From contig NZ_AOIQ01000017.1 in the NCBI RefSeq assembly GCF_000337515.1, positions 277,671 to 327,817 on the forward strand: a stretch of 50,147 nucleotides of DNA, read 5' to 3'. The position numbers were made by a program, and so were the translations under genes. The notes under the pieces were generated by a model. The model saw nothing but the letters and a program-made list of their open reading frames with translations. It made no database searches and had not been told where the DNA came from. Of the stretch, positions 37,101 to 47,437 are shown piece after piece (the first letter of the stretch is position 1; each line of letters opens with the position of its first letter). Source of the stretch: Halovivax asiaticus JCM 14624 (lineage in GTDB: Archaea > Halobacteriota > Halobacteria > Halobacteriales > Natrialbaceae).

Positions 37101-37204
37101 GAGGTTCTCGCGCCTACGGCGCTCACGGGTCACTCCGTTCCCCGTTCGCGTTCCCGAGGCCTCACTTCGTTCGGCCTCGCACGCTCCGAACCGCGCTCTA
37201 CTCA
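37101..37204. repeat. Palindrome-rich extragenic repeat, copy B, ending in the gcdH stop codon
   Basis: This is the second copy of the 104-bp repeat, with the hairpin 37155-37179. Its last 7 bases (37198-37204) overlap the final codons and TAG stop of the acyl-CoA dehydrogenase gene, so the element abuts the gene exactly. Together with copy A it fills the 367-nt gap 36831-37197. Confidence 0.6.
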
Positions 37205-38361
37205 AACGCCGCAATCCCAGTCAAATCCTGGCCGAGAATCAGCGTGTGGATGTCGTGGGTGCCTTCGTAGGTGTAGACAGTCTCCATGTTCGCCATGTGG
37301 CGCATGGGCGAGTAGTCGGTCGTGATACCGTTGCCGCCGAGCATTTCGCGGGCGACGCGGGTCTGGTCGCGAGCCATGCGGACGTTGTTGCGTTTGGCCA
37401 TCGAGACGTGCTGCGGGCGGAGGTCGCCGCGTTCTTTGAGTTCGGCGAGACGGTAGGCCAGCAGCTGGGCGGTGGTGATCTGGGTGGCCATCTCGGCGAG
37501 TTTCTCCTGCTGGAGCTGGAAACGCGCGATGGGGCCGTCGAACTGGTCGCGTTCGAGGGCGTAGTCGCGGGCCTGTTCGAATGCGTCGCGGGCGGCGCCG
37601 ACGGCGCCCCAGGCGATGCCGTAGCGCGCCTGGGTGAGACACGACAGTGGTCCCTTCATCCCGGAGACGCCGGGAAGGACGTTCTCCTCGGGGACGCGGA
37701 CGTCGTTCAGGCCGATCTCGCCGGTGATCGAGGCGCGCAGCGAGAGTTTGTCGTCTAACTTGTTCGTCGAGAACCCGTCGCGGTCGGTCTCGACGAGGAA
37801 GCCGCGGACGGGTTCGTCGTCGGCCGAGCGGTCGCGCGCCCAGATGATCGCCACGTCGGCGATCGGCGCGTTCGTGATCCAGGTCTTCGAACCGTTGATG
37901 AGGTAGCCGTCCGCATCCTTCTCCGCGGCGGTTTCCATTCCGGAGGGATTCGAGCCGTGTTCGGGCTCGGTGAGGCCGAAGCAGCCGATGGCCTCGCCCG
38001 TCCCCATGTCTCGGAGCCACTCGTCCTTCTGGGCCTCGCTGCCGTAGGCGTGGATCGGGTACATGACGAGCGAACCCTGCACCGAGGCCATCGATCGAAC
38101 GCCGGAGTCGCAGGCCTCGAGCTCCTGCATCAGGATGCCGTAGGCCGTCTCGGAGACGTTCGGGAGGCCGTAGCCCTCCAGATTCGGAGCGAAGAACCCG
38201 AGTTCCCCGAGTTCGGGGATCAGGTCGGTGGGGAAGGTCCCCGCCTCGTAGTGGTCGGCGATGTCCGGACGGACCTTCTCGTCGACGAACTCGCGAGCCG
38301 TGTCACGGATCATTCGCTCCTCGGCGTCTAAATCTGCCTCCAGGGAGACGTAATCCAGCAT
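37198..38361 (-). CDS. Acyl-CoA dehydrogenase, glutaryl-CoA dehydrogenase type
   Basis: The FAD enzyme has 387 residues. The sequence tracks human glutaryl-CoA dehydrogenase block by block: SGVRSMASVQGSLVMYPIHA (R89 corresponds to the carboxylate-binding arginine), GCFGLTEPEHGSNPSGMET, LINGSKTWITNAPIAD, and METVYTYEGTHDIHTLILG with catalytic base E366. GCDH oxidises and decarboxylates glutaryl-CoA to crotonyl-CoA. Haloarchaea have several acyl-CoA dehydrogenases of this subgroup, so the true substrate could be another acyl-CoA. It starts at ATG 38359-38361, back to back with the tryptophan-degrading genes. Confidence 0.88.
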   Translation of the reverse strand: MLDYVSLEADLDAEERMIRDTAREFVDEKVRPDIADHYEAGTFPTDLIPELGELGFFAPNLEGYGLPNVSETAYGILMQELEACDSGVRSMASVQGSLVMYPIHAYGSEAQKDEWLRDMGTGEAIGCFGLTEPEHGSNPSGMETAAEKDADGYLINGSKTWITNAPIADVAIIWARDRSADDEPVRGFLVETDRDGFSTNKLDDKLSLRASITGEIGLNDVRVPEENVLPGVSGMKGPLSCLTQARYGIAWGAVGAARDAFEQARDYALERDQFDGPIARFQLQQEKLAEMATQITTAQLLAYRLAELKERGDLRPQHVSMAKRNNVRMARDQTRVAREMLGGNGITTDYSPMRHMANMETVYTYEGTHDIHTLILGQDLTGIAAFE

Positions 38362-38585
38362 GCCAATTGCTGGGACGAGCGGCGTGAAAAGCGCTCCTAT
38401 GTTGCCAGCGTGGCTCGCCTTCTGTCACCGTCTCGTGTTCTCGCCGAGTCGTCGCTTCGGCCGTTCATCGGCTCCCCATCTCTCCGCTGATGCGTCCGAT
38501 CGGGTAGTGGTGCAGGAATCTACGCACTGATACCCGGCCATTCGTGCTGGCGCGCACCTTCCGCCATCGATGTGTCTATTTCCGG

Positions 38586-38623: not shown

Positions 38624-39790
38624 ATGACCCGAACCGCCGTGGCCGCGCTCGACCACCACGATATCTCTCGCGAACGCGGCTTTCTTCCCGAAACCGACCC
38701 ACTGTCTTCGTTCGATCCCGCGTCTCACGATCCGTCGGTCGGCGCGGCCCTGGAGGCGTTCGACCAGCTGAGTGCGGAACTCCCGGCCCGTCTCGACGAG
38801 GGCTCCGTTCGGCAGGCGGTCGAGACGCTTCCCGAACTCTCCGCCGACGCGATCGCCTCGCTCACAGACCGCGAGGCGATCCGGCTCTGCACCCTGAGTG
38901 GTTTCTTCGCCAGCGCGTCCGTCCACCAGGTCGACGCTGCGTCCGTCGACCGGCTCCCCGAGTCGGTCGCCGTCCCGCTCGTGGAAACGTCCCGCCGGTT
39001 CGGTCGCAAACCCATCCTCTCCTACGACCAGCTCTGTCTCCACAACTGGCGCCGCCGCGAACCAGATGCCGCGCTCACCGAGCCCACGAATCTCGAGGCG
39101 CTCGTCCAGTTCACCGACCACGACGACGAGCGCTGGTTCGTCGTCATCCACGTCGCGATCGAGGCACGGGCGGGGCAGGCACTCTGGGCTGGCGCGAACG
39201 CGCAGGAGGCTGTCCGCACCGCCGATCCCGACGCACTGGTCGACGAACTCGAGACCCTCGCCGACTCGATCGACGCCCAGACCGAGATCATGCGCCGGAT
39301 GACCGAGCGCAACGACCCCGAGGTCTTCGCTCGCGAGTACCGTCCGTACTACGAGGGGTTCGACGACGTCGTCTACGAGGGCGTCGACGGCTTCGACGGC
39401 GAGACGCGCACCTACCGCGGTGGGTCCGGCGCCCAGAGTTCGATCCTCCCCTCGCTCGACGCTGCCCTCGGTGTCGACCACGCCGCGACCGAACTCATCG
39501 AGAAGCTCACGGACATGCGCAGCTACATGCCCGAATCTCACCGCGAGGTGATCGACGCGTTCGACCGCGGACCGGCGATCGGCGCGTACGTCGACGAGAC
39601 GGGCCGCGACGATCTCCGCGCGGCCTACAACGACTGCACCGACTCGCTCGCTACATTCCGCCGGGTCCACTTCGGGCAGGTCATCCAGTACATTCGGGCG
39701 GTGACCGGCGACACGACCGGCACCGGCGGGACAGACTACATGGAGTTCTTGCAGGTGATGCAAGAGGAGACGGCAGCGCAGACGCGGTAG
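38624..39790 (+). CDS. ido: Indoleamine 2,3-dioxygenase family haem enzyme
   Basis: IDO opens the indole ring of tryptophan with O2 to give N-formylkynurenine. It has 388 residues, close to human IDO1 (403). The blocks match the family strongly. GRKPILSYDQLCLHNWRR lines the distal site, and EYRPYYEGF contains R240 at the position of human R231. RTYRGGSGAQSSILPSLDAA follows, then MRSYMPESHREVIDAF. The proximal haem ligand is H349 in FRRVHFGQVIQYI. GTGGTDYMEFL is the C-terminal loop that closes over the substrate. No signal peptide is seen, so it is cytoplasmic. IDO is best known in animals, fungi and some bacteria. It is convergent with kynureninase, 80 nt apart. Confidence 0.9.
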   Translation: MTRTAVAALDHHDISRERGFLPETDPLSSFDPASHDPSVGAALEAFDQLSAELPARLDEGSVRQAVETLPELSADAIASLTDREAIRLCTLSGFFASASVHQVDAASVDRLPESVAVPLVETSRRFGRKPILSYDQLCLHNWRRREPDAALTEPTNLEALVQFTDHDDERWFVVIHVAIEARAGQALWAGANAQEAVRTADPDALVDELETLADSIDAQTEIMRRMTERNDPEVFAREYRPYYEGFDDVVYEGVDGFDGETRTYRGGSGAQSSILPSLDAALGVDHAATELIEKLTDMRSYMPESHREVIDAFDRGPAIGAYVDETGRDDLRAAYNDCTDSLATFRRVHFGQVIQYIRAVTGDTTGTGGTDYMEFLQVMQEETAAQTR

Positions 39791-39870
39791 TTCGAACGGG
39801 TTGGCGTATCGTGGTTTGTCGATCACAGCGCCGTTTCAGCGTGCTGATTCGTCACTGGCCAGCGGACCGG

Positions 39871-41178
39871 TCACGTCACGTCGCCGGCCGCCTCGTACGC
39901 CTCGTATCGTTTCTCGTCGATGATATCGGCCACGATCTCGACGACGTCGTAGACGTCCTCGTAGCGCACGTACAGCGGCGCGGGGGCGACGCGGATCACG
40001 TTCGGTGGGCGGAAGTCGACGATCACCTCGCGGTCGCGAAGTGCCTCGCTGATTCGCTCGGCTTCGGGGTGTTCGAGGGCGACGTGGCCGCCGCGGTGGG
40101 CCGGGTCGCGGGGCGTCCCGATCGAGACGCCCCGGTCGGCGAGGTGCTCGTCGACGAGGTCGATCAGGTACTCGGTGAGGGCGATCGACTTCTCGCGGAC
40201 CGCCTCGATGCCGGCGTCGTGGGTGAGTTCGAGCGCGCCGAACAACGGGGCGGCGCTGAAGACCGGGATCGTCCCCGCCTGCCAGGCGCCGGCGTCGTCT
40301 GCGGGCGTAAAGTCGAGGTTCAGCTCGAACTGTGACTCCTTGTCGTGGCCCCACCAGCCCGCGAGTGCGGGCTCCTCGCCGAAGTGTCGCTCGTTGACGT
40401 AGAGGCCCGCGACGGCCCCCGGTCCCGCGTTTAAGTACTTGTAAGAACACCAGACGGCGAAGTCGACGCCGATCGCGGAGAGGTCGTGGGGCACGACGCC
40501 GATCGAGTGTGCCAGGTCGAACCCGACTAGGACGTCCCGCTCGTGGGCCGCCTCGGTGATCGCCTCGATATCGAACAGCTGCCCGCTCCGGTAGAGCACC
40601 GAGGGCATGAAGACGATGCCGACGTCGTTTGCGTCCATCGCGTCGATCACGTCCTCGGTTTCGATGGTCCGCCCGTCCCTGCTCTCGACGAGGTGGAGGT
40701 GTTCGTCGGGGTCGAGTCCGCGCTGGCGCAGCTGGGACTGGATCGCGTAGTGGTCCGTCGGGAAGTCGAGGTCGTTGACGAGGACGCCGCGGGGCTCGTC
40801 CGGCTCCTGCGCGTCTACGAAGGTTCCAACGAGCGTGTGGATGTTGATCGTCGTCGAGTTGCCCACGACGACCTCGTCGGGGTCCGCGCCGACGAGCGGT
40901 GCGAGTTCGCCGCCCAGCCGTTCGCCGTACCAGAACCACGGGGGCTCCGAGTCGGTCCAGCCGCGGATGGCCTGGTCGCGCCACTGGTCCACGGCGCGCT
41001 GCAGGCTCTCCTCGGCCGCGTCGGAGATCGGTCCCAGCGAGTTGCCGTCCATGTAGTAGTCGTCGGGAATCTCGAAGCGCTCGCGGAAGTCGGCGAGCGG
41101 ATCGGCCTGGTCGCGTTCGCGGGCGTCGCGGCGACCCGCGTCGGCCACGGCGTCACCGTCGCTTTCGCTGTCAACCAT
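39871..41178 (-). CDS. kynU: Kynureninase
   Basis: The PLP enzyme cleaves kynurenine to anthranilate and alanine. It has 435 residues, starting at ATG 41176-41178. YMDGNSLGPIS (42-52) is the family N-terminal motif. VGNSTTINIHTLVGTF binds the PLP phosphate, and GFDLAHSIGVVPHDL contains the aspartate that pairs with the PLP nitrogen. SYKYLNAGPGAVAGLY has the Schiff-base lysine K247. NVIRVAPAPLYVRYEDV at the C-terminus is also conserved. An acidic tail of about 30 residues precedes the fold. It would use the product of IDO once deformylated. It is divergent from the HSL-type hydrolase. Confidence 0.93.
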   Translation of the reverse strand: MVDSESDGDAVADAGRRDARERDQADPLADFRERFEIPDDYYMDGNSLGPISDAAEESLQRAVDQWRDQAIRGWTDSEPPWFWYGERLGGELAPLVGADPDEVVVGNSTTINIHTLVGTFVDAQEPDEPRGVLVNDLDFPTDHYAIQSQLRQRGLDPDEHLHLVESRDGRTIETEDVIDAMDANDVGIVFMPSVLYRSGQLFDIEAITEAAHERDVLVGFDLAHSIGVVPHDLSAIGVDFAVWCSYKYLNAGPGAVAGLYVNERHFGEEPALAGWWGHDKESQFELNLDFTPADDAGAWQAGTIPVFSAAPLFGALELTHDAGIEAVREKSIALTEYLIDLVDEHLADRGVSIGTPRDPAHRGGHVALEHPEAERISEALRDREVIVDFRPPNVIRVAPAPLYVRYEDVYDVVEIVADIIDEKRYEAYEAAGDVT

Positions 41179-41349
41179 GGTGTCGGCTGTCGTGGTCGAC
41201 CTACAGGTAGCTTTCGACGCCGGAACGATCGGATCCCGTCGCTGGTGTGCAGGTTCGCCGGCGAGGTATCGGATTTGTGCGCCGGTAGGCCGAGCGAGTC
41301 CCCCGTTCCGGGCGGTGGACTCATCTACCAGTCCGCCGATGTCCCGCGC
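41179..41349. other. Divergent promoter region kynU / hydrolase
   Basis: This 171-nt spacer lies between the two start codons. The plus strand is open through it, but the first in-frame start is ATG 41350. It contains CTACAGGTAG (41201-41210 approx.), a small palindrome close to kynU. No consensus TATA box is obvious on either side. Both genes could be controlled together from here. Confidence 0.35.
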
Positions 41350-42327
41350 ATGGACGAGACCGCAGTCGAGTCGAGCGAGCACGACGAACCGCATCGGGAG
41401 TCGACCGACGAACTCGACCCCGAACTCGCCGCGGTCGTCGCGGACATCCAGGCGGCCGGCGTTCCCCAGTGGTCGGCGCTCTCGGTCGCGAGCGCGCGGC
41501 GAATCGAAGACGAGGTGTTCTCCGGCGGAGCCAGCCCCGACCTGCGGACGGTGCGGGATCTCCGCATCGACGGTCCCGGCGGCGACCTGCCGATCCGCGT
41601 CTACCGGCCCGACCGTGAGGACCCGCCGACGCTGGTCTTTACCCACGGCGGCGGCTGGACGCTCGGGACGCTCGACTCGTCGGACAACATCTGTCGCGAA
41701 CTGGCGAGCCGTGCGGGCGCCCTGGTCCTGTCGGTCGACTACCGACTCGCGCCCGAACACCCGTTCCCGGCCGCGACGGACGATGCCTACGCCGCCCTGG
41801 AGTGGGCCGGCGCACACGCGGCCGAACTGGGTGGCGATTCCGACCGGCTCGGCGTCGTCGGGACGAGCGCTGGCGGGAACCTCGCGGCTGCGTCGGCGAT
41901 CCGGGCGCGGGATACTTCGGTCACCCTGGACGGCCAGTTCCTCCTGTATCCGATGACGGACCGGCGATTCGACCGCTCGTCCTACGACGAACACGGTGAC
42001 GGCCCGCTGCTCACCGAGGCCGACGTCCGCTGGTTCTGGGACCAGTACCTCCGCAGCCCGGTCGACGAACACAACCCGTTCGCGACCGTCTGCCGCGCGC
42101 CAGACCTCGCCGGCGTGGCACCCGCGACGGTGGTGACCGCCGGCCACGATGTCCTTCGGGACGAAGGCGCGGCCTACGCGGAACGACTGGCCGACGACGG
42201 CGTCACGGTCGACCACGATCACTATCCGTCGATGACGCACGGCTTCCTGAGCCTGACCGACAGCGTCTCGCGGGCGGACGAGGCGATGGACGCCCTGGCG
42301 GCTGCGATTCGGGACCGACTCGGCTAA
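41350..42327 (+). CDS. HSL-family alpha/beta hydrolase; candidate kynurenine formamidase
   Basis: The protein has 325 residues from ATG 41350. It carries the hormone-sensitive-lipase family marks: HGGGW (99-103) as oxyanion hole, nucleophile S173 in GTSAGGNLAAAS, D267 in TAGHDVLRDEG and H297 in MTHGF. A cap of about 70 residues precedes the core. Carboxylesterases of this family are common in archaea. Animal arylformamidase (AFMID), which hydrolyses N-formylkynurenine, belongs to the same structural family with an H-G-G-x-W and G-x-S-A-G. Since the gene sits beside IDO and kynureninase, that activity is a plausible inference, but an unrelated esterase is equally possible on sequence alone. 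Confidence 0.85.
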   Translation: MDETAVESSEHDEPHRESTDELDPELAAVVADIQAAGVPQWSALSVASARRIEDEVFSGGASPDLRTVRDLRIDGPGGDLPIRVYRPDREDPPTLVFTHGGGWTLGTLDSSDNICRELASRAGALVLSVDYRLAPEHPFPAATDDAYAALEWAGAHAAELGGDSDRLGVVGTSAGGNLAAASAIRARDTSVTLDGQFLLYPMTDRRFDRSSYDEHGDGPLLTEADVRWFWDQYLRSPVDEHNPFATVCRAPDLAGVAPATVVTAGHDVLRDEGAAYAERLADDGVTVDHDHYPSMTHGFLSLTDSVSRADEAMDALAAAIRDRLG

Positions 42328-42426
42328 CCCATCGAGACTGGGCGCCGTCCAGGTGTTGGGTGGTGTCCATGGCGATAATTGTCCCACTGATTACGAACTA
42401 ACCTTCGCCATTCTTAACCACGATAA

Positions 42427-42432
42427 TTTATA
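42427..42432 (+). promoter_or_regulatory. TATA box for the small membrane protein
   Basis: TTTATA, within GATAATTTATAC, ends 23 nt before ATG 42456. That is the standard arrangement for a leaderless haloarchaeal transcript. Confidence 0.55.
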
Positions 42433-42455
42433 CTCGCCGAGACAGATTTCGACGT

Positions 42456-42644
42456 ATGCACGACGAACACGCCAACTCGGTCCTGTTCTATCTCAACTCG
42501 ATCCGGTCTGCCGTTGCGGCGCTGGCACTTGCCGTCTTGTCCGCCACGTTCGTCTTTGGTGGCAGTGATGGCGTTGGTTTCATTTTCGCCATCTGTAGTC
42601 TTCTGTTGCTCCTATACGCGTTCGCGCCGGCAGCGGACTTGTAA
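42456..42644 (+). CDS. Small membrane protein, 62 aa
   Basis: A hydrophilic N-terminus (MHDEHANSVLFYLNSIRS) comes before two hydrophobic segments, about 17-34 and 40-56, ending APAADL at TAA 42642-42644. The TATA box and ATG spacing support it being expressed. The function is unknown. The same frame continues after the stop with coding-like sequence to about 42750, but no homology argument supports joining the two. Confidence 0.6.
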   Translation: MHDEHANSVLFYLNSIRSAVAALALAVLSATFVFGGSDGVGFIFAICSLLLLLYAFAPAADL

Positions 42645-42971
42645 TTCGGCGACACCATCGACGGACGGGACGGTACGGAGGCCTGCGCAGTTCTCGGACG
42701 AGACGCCCTCGACTGGCGGCCGTCCGCTGCGCTACCCAGTGGTGTGAGGACGGGTCCGTAATCGGAGCTGCCGGTACGCGCCGGGTCACTTCGTTCGCCG
42801 GTTACAGTCCGTCGTCTCGCCCTCTGCCTCGAAAGCCGACCGGTCGCTGTGTCCAGTTCAATCGTCGTCGGCGGGTCATCGTCACACCACCGAACCCCGT
42901 TACGACCTGGCATGTGCCCGTCTCTCCTAGGCAGTCACTTACTTAGCCGATCGACGGTGCGTCTCTGGGCG
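42645..42971. other. Intergenic, no gene seen
   Basis: This is a 327-nt gap. Frames here are short, without starts, or look like antisense translation. GGGTCACTTCGTTCGCCGG (about 42783) contains the CACTTCGTTCG string also present in the repeats at 37 kb. TACTTAGCC (about 42941) could be part of the promoter of the next gene. Nothing else is evident. Confidence 0.4.
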
Positions 42972-44425: not shown

Positions 44426-45151
44426 TCAGTCCGCGCCGGCGCGTTCGACACCGCCTTCTCCGTCGGCGTCCCCTCGAACGCCCTCGACGTACGCCACGAA
44501 GTTCTCGAAGAGCTGTTTCGATTCGGCGGCTCGCCGGGCGTTCTCGTCGGTGATACCGGCAAGGACGCGCTCGCGACGGTCGTCGTCCAGTTCCTTCTCC
44601 ATCGTCAGATCGCGGGCGCTCTGGGCGTCGTACTCAGGATGGAACTGAACGCCGAAGACGCGATCGCGGCGGAAGGCGTGGTTCGAGTACTCGTTTCTGG
44701 CGAGTTCGATCGCGTCCGGGGGGAGGTCGACGACTGCGTCAGAGTGGGTCGTGAAGGCGAGGAACGTCTCGTCGATGCCCGCTAGCAGGACCGACTCGTC
44801 GGTCGTCCGGTCGATCTCGTGGTAGCCGATCTCGTAGACGCCCATGTCGGCGACCTCGCCGCCGAGTACGTCGGCGAGTAGCTGGTGACCCCAGCAGACG
44901 CCGAGGCAGGGAACCCCGCGGTCGATTGCACCTCCGACCCACGCCTTCGTCGCCTCGATCCAGTCTTCGTCCCAGTAGACCGACGATCGCGAGCCGGTGA
45001 CGACCACGCCGTCGACATTGTAGTCCGCCGGCAGCGACCCCGCCGTCACGTCGAATTCGGCGAGCGAGGCCGAAAGCTCGCGGCGGTAGTTCCGTGGGAC
45101 GTTCTCGTCTCCGTGGCTGGCATCGAGCAGGGCGAGTCGCGGTCGGCGCAT
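44426..45151 (-). CDS. Class I glutamine amidotransferase (GMP synthase-like)
   Basis: The protein has 241 residues. The triad is readable: C86 in LGVCWGHQLLADVLGGEV and H and E in FGVQFHPEYD. VTGSRSSVYWDEDWIEA (from about residue 52) is the oxyanion-loop region of free-standing GATase1 proteins related to YfeJ/GuaA. THSDAVVDLPPDAIELA also matches the family. These proteins move amide nitrogen or hydrolyse gamma-glutamyl compounds. No synthetase partner is adjacent, so the acceptor is unknown. It is convergent with the gene ending at 44396. Confidence 0.88.
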   Translation of the reverse strand: MRRPRLALLDASHGDENVPRNYRRELSASLAEFDVTAGSLPADYNVDGVVVTGSRSSVYWDEDWIEATKAWVGGAIDRGVPCLGVCWGHQLLADVLGGEVADMGVYEIGYHEIDRTTDESVLLAGIDETFLAFTTHSDAVVDLPPDAIELARNEYSNHAFRRDRVFGVQFHPEYDAQSARDLTMEKELDDDRRERVLAGITDENARRAAESKQLFENFVAYVEGVRGDADGEGGVERAGAD

Positions 45152-45253
45152 TCGAGTCGTAGTTGGGTTGCCGGCTCAATATGCGTTGTGCCGGTGTGCT
45201 CTGATCGTCACCGGTCGTCGCTGGGACCCGGCTTCGCCGCGGCTCACTATTTG

Positions 45254-46570
45254 TCAGGGCGTCTCGTCCATGTCCGTCTCCAGCGCATATCGACCGCGTT
45301 CGTCGCGCCGAAATCGGGTGCCCGACCGTCGCCACCGTCGTGGGTGCGCGCCGTCCCTCCCGTCCTCGCCGGGGACCACGTCGTTGGCCACGACCGGCCC
45401 GGACACGGCAAGTTCACCGGTTCCCGCACCCGCCACGACGGTCCCGTCGTCGACCAGTCGGGCGTCGACGTCGAGGAACGGGCGGCCGATCACCTGTGGG
45501 TGGAAACTCGCGTGCTGGTCGTGTGCAGATTCGGACGTCTCGCGGTCGCTCGCGAGCGCGTTCGGACAGCCCAGCCAGCCGAACGATCGGTCGACGGTCC
45601 CGGCGCACGCGTCGAGTGAGTCGAGGAGCTCGCCGTCGGTCCGCCCCGAGACGACTGCTCGATCGACGGCGGAAAGCGCCGCAGCGCCGCCGTCGCTCGC
45701 GAGGATCGACCGATATTCGTCCGCCGTTCCGACGAGGTGGGTCGCTCCGTGGGCCGCGATCGCTTTCGCCGCGTCGGCCGGGTCGAACGCCCGGTCGATA
45801 GCGAGTCGACCACCCGCGTAGAGGGTCGGCAACGCGACGGCCAGGAGTCCGTCCGGTCGCGAGAGCGGCCGGAGGAGGATCGTCCGATCGGTCGGCCCGA
45901 GTCCCCACGTCAGGACCGCCGCGAGACAGTTCGCCTCGACCGTTGCGGCCGAGTACGCGGCGATCGGCGCGCCGTCGCTTCCGTGGAGGGCCAGCAGTGG
46001 GGCCGCTTCGCCGTCGTCCCCTCGATTCGGGCCGCCTGTTGATGGCGATTCGTCGGGCGGGTCGGCGGCAGTGTCGGCCGAGCCATCGTCCGCGCCGACG
46101 GTCGTGTCGGACGGGTCGCCGTTCGCTCCGACGGTCGTGCCGGTCCCGCCACCGTCGGCGTCGAAGAGCGATTCCAGCGCGACCGTCCGGGCGCCATCGA
46201 CGCTTCGGACGAGGTCGCGCTGGGCGGATTCCGCGAGCACGATCGCCGGGTCGAGCAGCGAGAGCGGCGTCTCCACGCTGACGGGGGTCAGTCGGTGCGA
46301 GATCGGGGCGAACGTGGCTCCGAGGCGCTCGCAGGCGAAGAGCAGCGCGACGCCGGTGATTCGGTTGCGCGAGAGGAGTGCGACCGTCTCGCCAGCCTCG
46401 ACGCCCTGGGTTGCGAGCGCGTCGGCGAGCCACGACGACAGGGTGGCGAGCTCGCCGTAGGTCAGGCGATCGTCGTCGATGGTCCCCGCCGGGGCGAACC
46501 GGTCGGTCTCGGCGACGTCGACGATTGCGGTTCGGTCGCCCCACCGGGCGGCCCGCGCGTCGATTGACAC
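45254..46570 (-). CDS. Truncated, divergent AMP-binding (acyl-CoA synthetase-like) protein
   Basis: I start at GTG 46568-46570 (438 aa); GTG 46582 is the alternative, and the farther upstream start would be TTG. The N-terminus (ARWGDRTAIVD, then RLTYGELATLSSWLADALAT) and VALLSRNRITGVALLFACERLGATFAPI are those of adenylate-forming enzymes. The phosphate loop S-G-T-T-G-x-P-K is replaced by LHGSDGAPIAAYS. The aromatic-loop motif Y-G-x-T-E is FGWLGCP, and the C-terminal domain with the acyl-transfer lysine is absent. An acidic linker with a repeated TTVGA lies at about 157-175 of the longest form. It probably cannot adenylate normally. It follows the serine-less hydrolase gene by 87 nt. Confidence 0.7.
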   Translation of the reverse strand: MSIDARAARWGDRTAIVDVAETDRFAPAGTIDDDRLTYGELATLSSWLADALATQGVEAGETVALLSRNRITGVALLFACERLGATFAPISHRLTPVSVETPLSLLDPAIVLAESAQRDLVRSVDGARTVALESLFDADGGGTGTTVGANGDPSDTTVGADDGSADTAADPPDESPSTGGPNRGDDGEAAPLLALHGSDGAPIAAYSAATVEANCLAAVLTWGLGPTDRTILLRPLSRPDGLLAVALPTLYAGGRLAIDRAFDPADAAKAIAAHGATHLVGTADEYRSILASDGGAAALSAVDRAVVSGRTDGELLDSLDACAGTVDRSFGWLGCPNALASDRETSESAHDQHASFHPQVIGRPFLDVDARLVDDGTVVAGAGTGELAVSGPVVANDVVPGEDGRDGAHPRRWRRSGTRFRRDERGRYALETDMDETP

Positions 46571-46657
46571 GTTGGAAATCACGACGGCGATCCCCGTCAA
46601 ACCGGCGGGCCGGATTCGCCGGGACGGGTATGACGTGGTGCTGCGCTACCGCTCACG

Positions 46658-47437
46658 CTACTCGTCGTCGGTCTGGTCCGCCAGAAACCCGAGTAGATGA
46701 TCGTTGACCGCCCGCGATCGTTCGATCTGTGGCAGGTGGTCGCTACCGTCGATCGATCGCAACTCGCCACGGGGGAGCGACTCGGCGAGGCGGCGACCGG
46801 CGTCGTGGGGAACGACCAAGTCGTCGCTCCCGTGGAGGACGAGCGTCGGCGTCGTCAGTTCGTAGCCCCACGCCGTCGCGTCGAACCCGGAGGCGGCGTC
46901 GAGTTGGGCGCGCGTGGACGCCGGATCGGCGTCACCGTCCTCGCGCCACTCGACGATGCCGTCGACGACGTCCGGCTGCTCGGCCCGGAAGGATGACGAG
47001 AGGAGCGATTCGGTCGACGCCCGGAGGGCGGTTCGATCCCGGTCGACGACGAGCGCGTCACGATCGACCGCCTCCGCCCGTGCGGGCGTCCCGATCACCG
47101 TGAGCGTCTCGATTCGTGTCGAGTCGCGGGCGGCCTGCAGCGCGACCACGCCGCCGAGGCCGGCCCCGACGACGTGTGCGTTGCGAGCGTCGAGCGCCTG
47201 GAGGATCGCCTCGAGATCGTCGACGAGCGTCTCGAGTTCGTAGGGCCCGTCGGGAGCGTCGGAGCGGCCCGTCCCCCGGAGGTCCCAGACGACGCTCCGG
47301 TAGGGGCCCGTGACGGCCCGGTGTTGCCACCCCCAGGACCAGCCGCCGAAGCCCGCTTCGTTCACGAAGACGACCGGCGTCCCCGCTCCGTCGACCTCGT
47401 AGTGCAGCGAGACGCCGTCGTTCGAAACCGTCGGCAT
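46658..47437 (-). CDS. Alpha/beta hydrolase lacking the nucleophile serine
   Basis: The protein has 259 residues and a full alpha/beta-hydrolase fold. VVFVNEAGFGGWSWGWQ carries the oxyanion region, VVWDLRGTGRSD is the conserved turn, HGSDDLVVP holds the acid and GSDHLPQIE the histidine. The nucleophile elbow, normally G-x-S-x-G-G, reads GAGLGG (91-96) with Gly93 (codon at 47159-47161) in place of serine. The DNA there is clean GC-rich sequence, so a simple error is not suspected. Members without the nucleophile may bind ligand or act with another mechanism. It is the first of two same-strand genes, with the AMP-binding gene downstream. Confidence 0.82.
   Translation of the reverse strand: MPTVSNDGVSLHYEVDGAGTPVVFVNEAGFGGWSWGWQHRAVTGPYRSVVWDLRGTGRSDAPDGPYELETLVDDLEAILQALDARNAHVVGAGLGGVVALQAARDSTRIETLTVIGTPARAEAVDRDALVVDRDRTALRASTESLLSSSFRAEQPDVVDGIVEWREDGDADPASTRAQLDAASGFDATAWGYELTTPTLVLHGSDDLVVPHDAGRRLAESLPRGELRSIDGSDHLPQIERSRAVNDHLLGFLADQTDDE

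Follow-up and report, generated by a model that had tools for sequence, protein, structure and literature searches.

The window analysed here is a 50,147-nucleotide stretch of the genome of Halovivax asiaticus JCM 14624 (G000; 3.24 Mb in 24 contigs, 99.3% complete), and the subject of this study is a group of three neighbouring genes that probably form a kynurenine route from tryptophan to anthranilate. The first encodes an indoleamine 2,3-dioxygenase (IDO) of 388 amino acids (positions 38624-39790, plus strand), the second a kynureninase (KynU) of 435 amino acids (39871-41178, minus strand) and the third an alpha/beta hydrolase of the hormone-sensitive lipase (HSL) family with a length of 325 amino acids (41350-42327, plus strand), which is proposed to be an N-formylkynurenine formamidase. 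IDO and kynU are convergent with their 3' ends 80 nt apart, and kynU and the hydrolase gene are divergent with their starts separated by 171 nt. All three genes are conserved in sister genomes at 81-96% identity, which rules out chance open reading frames. A sequence-only reading of the window had named the same three genes together with their key residues, and this observation is confirmed with all three genes intact. Its interpretation holds in part: the route finds support, and the hydrolase turns out to be LipP1-like and to belong with kynureninase generally.

Gene products at the locus

In a profile search the IDO matches PF01231 with an E-value of 3.1e-79 (267 bits, curated cut-off 26). 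The proximal haem ligand H349, the substrate arginine R240 and the GTGGT loop at residues 366-370 are all present as anticipated and are invariant across 14 haloarchaeal IDOs. The kynureninase scores 388.8 bits against the equivalog model TIGR01814 (cut-off 246.4) and is, as expected, a complete enzyme encoded on the opposite strand from IDO, with a DLAHS motif at 221 and K247 as the lysine that carries pyridoxal phosphate (PLP); its start is best assigned to 41178 (MVDSESDG). It is similar to the solved kynureninase of Pseudomonas fluorescens (1qz9, E 3e-73), with which it shares W74, G302 and T303 at the specificity positions that are occupied by H102, S332 and N333 in the human enzyme, and the same trio is found in 33 of 36 haloarchaeal kynureninases. 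That these pocket residues separate kynurenine-using from 3-hydroxykynurenine-using kynureninases is known from studies of the human and the Pseudomonas proteins. The kynurenine-type, Pseudomonas-like pocket thus points to anthranilate as the expected product of the window enzyme.

The hydrolase starts with the ATG at 41350 and contains the HGGGW motif at 99, a GxSxG motif and the triad S173, D267 and H297, which bears out its earlier description as a divergently transcribed HSL-family member. It matches PF07859 (E 3e-74) and exceeds the cut-off of the NCBIfam model for LipP1-family hormone-sensitive lipases (376 bits, cut-off 350). Its AlphaFold model (pLDDT 93) has a classic family-IV esterase fold, for which Est8 is the best structural match (Z 48.8). 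The solved relative EstDL136, which is 44-48% identical to the window hydrolase in fold-search alignments, is an HSL enzyme that hydrolyses the amide bond of chloramphenicol (PMC6333409) and hence provides a precedent for amide cleavage by a hydrolase of this type. The sequence-only reading had likened the protein to animal arylformamidase; the nearest relatives by sequence and fold are the family-IV/LipP1 carboxylesterases and EstDL136, and nearness to arylformamidase is not shown. Animal AFMID/KFase is not among the best 50-60 sequence and fold matches listed for the hydrolase, which is no evidence of a difference between them.

Coupling of the hydrolase to kynureninase

The three proteins were followed through 243 genomes of the same order, which represent 77 genera. 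Hydrolase orthologues were delimited at an identity of at least 53% to the window protein, a line that was set after the gap was visible and that is backed by a tree of 28 clade and 14 paralogue sequences, in which the orthologues, whether linked to kynU or not, form a single clade apart from the paralogues of 44-51% identity (support 100/100). The residues that are fixed in this clade and not in the paralogues include W41, E53, T107 and S110. Kynureninase is present above the TIGR01814 cut-off in 104 of the 243 genomes, and 85 genomes contain both proteins, 19 only KynU, seven only the hydrolase (four of these genomes are 62-88% complete) and 132 neither, which corresponds to an odds ratio of 84 (p 1e-37). 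The association persists when each genus is counted once (both 29, KynU only 2, hydrolase only 1, neither 45; p 1e-17), and the paralogues show no association with KynU at all (odds ratio 1.00). The two genes lie less than 1 kb apart in 47 of the 85 pairs, of which 44 are divergent as in the window, and less than 10 kb apart in 61; in the other 24 genomes both genes are present and are unlinked within 10 kb.

This pattern bears on one alternative, namely that a common family-IV carboxylesterase or drug amidase has ended up beside kynU by accident. Such an enzyme would agree with the best matches of the hydrolase: esterases of the LipP1 type, Est8 and EstDL136, which hydrolyses chloramphenicol. 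However, the co-occurrence with KynU is specific to the clade, extends to unlinked copies and is missing from the paralogues, and the linkage to kynU is kept across differing gene orders, all of which renders an accidental neighbourhood improbable.

A co-occurrence of the hydrolase with IDO and kynureninase had been proposed as a check. With KynU it goes far beyond chance, and as 73 of the 85 genomes with the pair have no IDO (in 39 of them the pair is adjacent), KynU and not IDO is the partner to which the hydrolase is tied. IDO itself occurs in 14 of the 243 genomes and nine of the 77 genera; KynU is present in 13 of these 14 genomes, and the hydrolase likewise in 13 of the 14. Several haloarchaeal copies are plasmid-borne. 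The presence of IDO in an archaeon had been considered unexpected, and it is indeed rare, but other haloarchaea have it and public records already carry the annotation. The haloarchaeal IDOs form one clade with two subgroups, set apart from four bacterial IDOs from Methylocystis, Sphingobium and Terriglobia (support 97/95, in a small sample in which two of the bacterial branches are long). Locus L023 (G193:C7:75271-92386) has IDO and the hydrolase with no kynureninase over the cut-off; a Rieske dioxygenase alpha/beta pair, trpB and a class-V aminotransferase-like gene lie nearby, and kynurenine possibly has another fate there.

The alternative dioxygenase TDO (PF03301) is absent from all 243 genomes, whereas the model does match in two control genomes. 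The 73 pair genomes with neither IDO nor TDO, 39 of them with adjacent genes, could reflect an old salvage pair for external or oxidised-protein N-formylkynurenine and kynurenine, to which IDO was recruited later in a few lineages. The frequent location of IDO on plasmids points in the same direction, as does the lack of a conserved third gene, and thus of a possible missing dioxygenase, at 20 kynU loci in IDO-less genomes, but a tryptophan dioxygenase that has escaped recognition in those genomes would explain the data equally well. Such a history, which concerns the origin of the locus and is compatible with the enzyme roles proposed here, is a credible minority view. The KynU genomes without IDO or TDO would be fed either by an undescribed tryptophan dioxygenase or by kynurenine salvage. 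At one locus in G022 (L031:6379-8000), the genes after kynU encode a VOC-type ring-cleaving-dioxygenase-like protein and an alpha/beta hydrolase, an arrangement that is not kept at other loci.

Several observations weigh against a tryptophan-to-anthranilate route in which the hydrolase is the formamidase. Very low activity on tryptophan has been described for certain IDOs of bacteria and fungi (PMC4217691), the HSL family is composed mostly of esterases, 19 KynU genomes have no hydrolase of the clade, and 91 have neither IDO nor TDO, so that the pair may serve another substrate. Furthermore, G000, which outside the window was searched by named families and named proteins, encodes a KynB-like protein. 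No member of the KynB family (TIGR03035) exceeds the curated cut-off of 223 bits in any of the 243 genomes, and to that extent the earlier statement that a formamidase is missing holds, but it was too strong, as the KynB-superfamily protein L016 (G000:C3:31299-31943) scores 106 bits, the best in this genome, and matches solved KynB with an E-value of 1e-19. With E-values below 1e-25, KynB-like proteins are present in 14 of the 243 genomes and are mildly enriched where KynU occurs (11 of the 14; p 0.01; p 0.08 at the genus level); two of these KynU genomes (G092 and G225) lack the hydrolase. IDO and KynU could therefore act as proposed while deformylation is carried out by L016 or occurs spontaneously, with the hydrolase acting elsewhere, for instance on an ester side product. 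On the other hand L016 is unlinked and stays below the curated cut-off, proteins of the E 1e-25 level are found in just 11 of the 104 KynU genomes with an enrichment that is not significant among genera, and the association of the hydrolase with KynU is far stronger. L016 is a real candidate for the formamidase, weaker than the hydrolase, and this division of labour is considered unlikely. G000 has two PF04199 cyclase-family proteins; the second (L015:1471-2274; G000:C17:4119-4664) lies between genes for a LivF-type ABC ATPase and a BKACE-like protein and scores 36 bits against the KynB model. A quinolinate branch, as signalled by 3-HAO, was rejected: none of the 34 genomes tested has 3-HAO over the cut-off, two weak sub-cut-off fragments being the most that was seen in them, and it was not found in G000.

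Longer islands in related genomes

In the sister genome G164 (locus L018) the three genes are embedded in a longer island with the order coenzyme A (CoA) ligase, trpB, hydrolase, kynU, IDO, F420-type LLM oxidoreductase, a fusion of a flavin adenine dinucleotide (FAD) monooxygenase with an OYE-type reductase, and acyl-CoA dehydrogenase. The ligase is of the benzoate-CoA type. The fusion protein scores 845 bits against the salicylyl-CoA 5-hydroxylase/oxidoreductase model, below its cut-off of 1078, and has a size and domain order which we take to be those of a 2-aminobenzoyl-CoA monooxygenase/reductase, its putative function. Copies of the monooxygenase with at least 59% identity are present in nine genomes, all of which have IDO. 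A plasmid of Haladaptatus salinisoli carries genes for benzoate-CoA ligase, LLM oxidoreductase, FAD monooxygenase, RidA, acyl-CoA dehydrogenase, MaoC, SDR, enoyl-CoA hydratase, trpB, MFS, kynU, alpha/beta hydrolase and IDO, and plasmids of Natronococcus sp. CG52 and Natronosalvus halobius combine IDO, kynU and the hydrolase with trpB, the ligase and a branched-chain ABC transporter. RidA would fit into such a pathway, as the product of the monooxygenase would be an enamine. Nine of the 14 IDO genomes have a second trpB no more than about 14 kb from IDO, and a tenth has one beside the monooxygenase gene; copies in the island include L018:4201-5358, L093:15704-16858 and L095:9364-10536. Its products form a clade distinct from the biosynthetic TrpB that is also found without IDO, and in G082 (L105) such a gene has branched-chain ABC transporter genes as neighbours. 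As a lead it may be suggested that this second TrpB makes tryptophan for the route out of indole and serine.

The window retains one end of this island in the form of a glutaryl-CoA-dehydrogenase-like acyl-CoA dehydrogenase gene (37198-38361, minus strand; PF00441/PF02771/PF02770), which lies downstream of the monooxygenase gene in L018, L021 and L025. Comparison by blastn places two junctions on either side of the three genes. At the first (38401-38517), where window position 38400 corresponds to L018 12418 and 38518 to L018 9177, the sister locus has 3.2 kb with the LLM oxidoreductase and the anthraniloyl-CoA-type monooxygenase; at the second (42315-42925), where 42314 corresponds to L018 5385 and 42926 to L018 2090, it has 3.3 kb with the benzoate-CoA-type ligase and the second trpB. 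The window carries 0.1 kb and 0.6 kb of other sequence instead, and no scar or direct repeat was found at either junction. A small membrane-protein-like open reading frame (MHDEHANSVLFYLNS...) occupies approximately 42457-42645 (plus strand) within the second junction. Further along, adjacent genes for a glutamine amidotransferase, an AMP-binding ligase and a PcaD-like alpha/beta hydrolase are located at 44426-47437 (minus strand).

A loss in G000 is the more economical explanation, given that L018, L021, L025 and L027 all have the monooxygenase beside the acyl-CoA dehydrogenase or close to it, and the trio in the window would be the remnant of a longer anthranilate-degrading island, an aspect that was absent from the earlier account. 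No full-length monooxygenase was found in G000, the best match to the ligase is 36% identical compared with 90% between sister genomes, and the only TrpB over the cut-off is the biosynthetic copy. A Rieske oxygenase as the exit for anthranilate was rejected, as none was found in this genome. With no close ligase, monooxygenase or Rieske oxygenase detected, anthranilate looks like the end product in G000, and it would probably leave the cell or return to tryptophan synthesis.

The proposed route and its known counterparts

Taken together, the three genes are best read as a kynurenine route from tryptophan to anthranilate, with the lower half of the relatives' island lost in G000, and a probability of roughly 0.7 is given to this reading. 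The haem enzyme IDO would open tryptophan to give N-formylkynurenine, the hydrolase would deformylate it to kynurenine and formate through its serine triad and oxyanion motif, and the PLP-dependent kynureninase would split kynurenine into anthranilate and alanine. In the relatives, the CoA ligase, the anthraniloyl-CoA-type monooxygenase, RidA and beta-oxidation enzymes may carry anthranilate to central metabolism, and the second TrpB could supply tryptophan from indole and serine. The lack of TDO and of 3-HAO and KynB over their cut-offs, together with the linkage and co-occurrence of hydrolase and KynU, support the route to anthranilate and alanine that had been put forward from the sequence. 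What the data show directly are the identities of the genes, their catalytic residues, co-occurrence, linkage and losses; what each of the three enzymes acts on here, and where the anthranilate goes, is nonetheless inferred, and this applies above all to the formamidase step, for which genomic association suggests the hydrolase.

If true, haloarchaea would achieve complete aerobic tryptophan degradation from parts other than the bacterial ones, and a testable function could be named for a hydrolase family annotated just as "alpha/beta hydrolase". It also exposes a gap, as kynureninase is present in about 90 of the sampled haloarchaeal genomes without a known tryptophan dioxygenase. A bolder proposal would make the HSL clade a new archaeal kynurenine formamidase in about 30 haloarchaeal genera, place an undescribed tryptophan dioxygenase in the pair genomes without IDO and TDO, and let the IDO islands feed indole via the second TrpB to an anthraniloyl-CoA pathway; that all three parts hold jointly is rather doubtful. 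No paper describing such a route in haloarchaea was found in the open-access literature, subscription papers being outside the search.

Among characterised systems, the closest in chemistry is the bacterial TDO-KynB-KynU anthranilate branch, as in Pseudomonas and Ralstonia, which has a homologous KynU. The window differs in having IDO in place of TDO, an HSL hydrolase in place of the metal-dependent KynB, and an archaeal host. The bacterial IDOs of Methylocystis, Sphingobium and Terriglobia are 30-37% identical to the window IDO, and none of three bacterial plasmid copies examined lies beside an annotated kynU. Animal AFMID and the Drosophila kynurenine formamidase (4E11) share with the window hydrolase the alpha/beta hydrolase type, the serine triad and a sequence like that of esterases, a resemblance that has been noted for kynurenine formamidases (KFases) in general (PMC5171882); the window protein, for its part, has its nearest relatives in the LipP1/family-IV HSL group, and not demonstrably in the AFMID family. 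The relatives' islands are reminiscent of the aerobic 2-aminobenzoyl-CoA (anthraniloyl-CoA) pathway of Azoarcus evansii in their benzoate-CoA-type ligase, FAD monooxygenase/OYE-type reductase fusion, acyl-CoA dehydrogenase and enoyl-CoA hydratase. Unlike that pathway, the haloarchaeal island, of which the window lacks the lower half, is joined to IDO and KynU, is often plasmid-borne and additionally includes RidA, a second TrpB and an LLM oxidoreductase of the F420 type.

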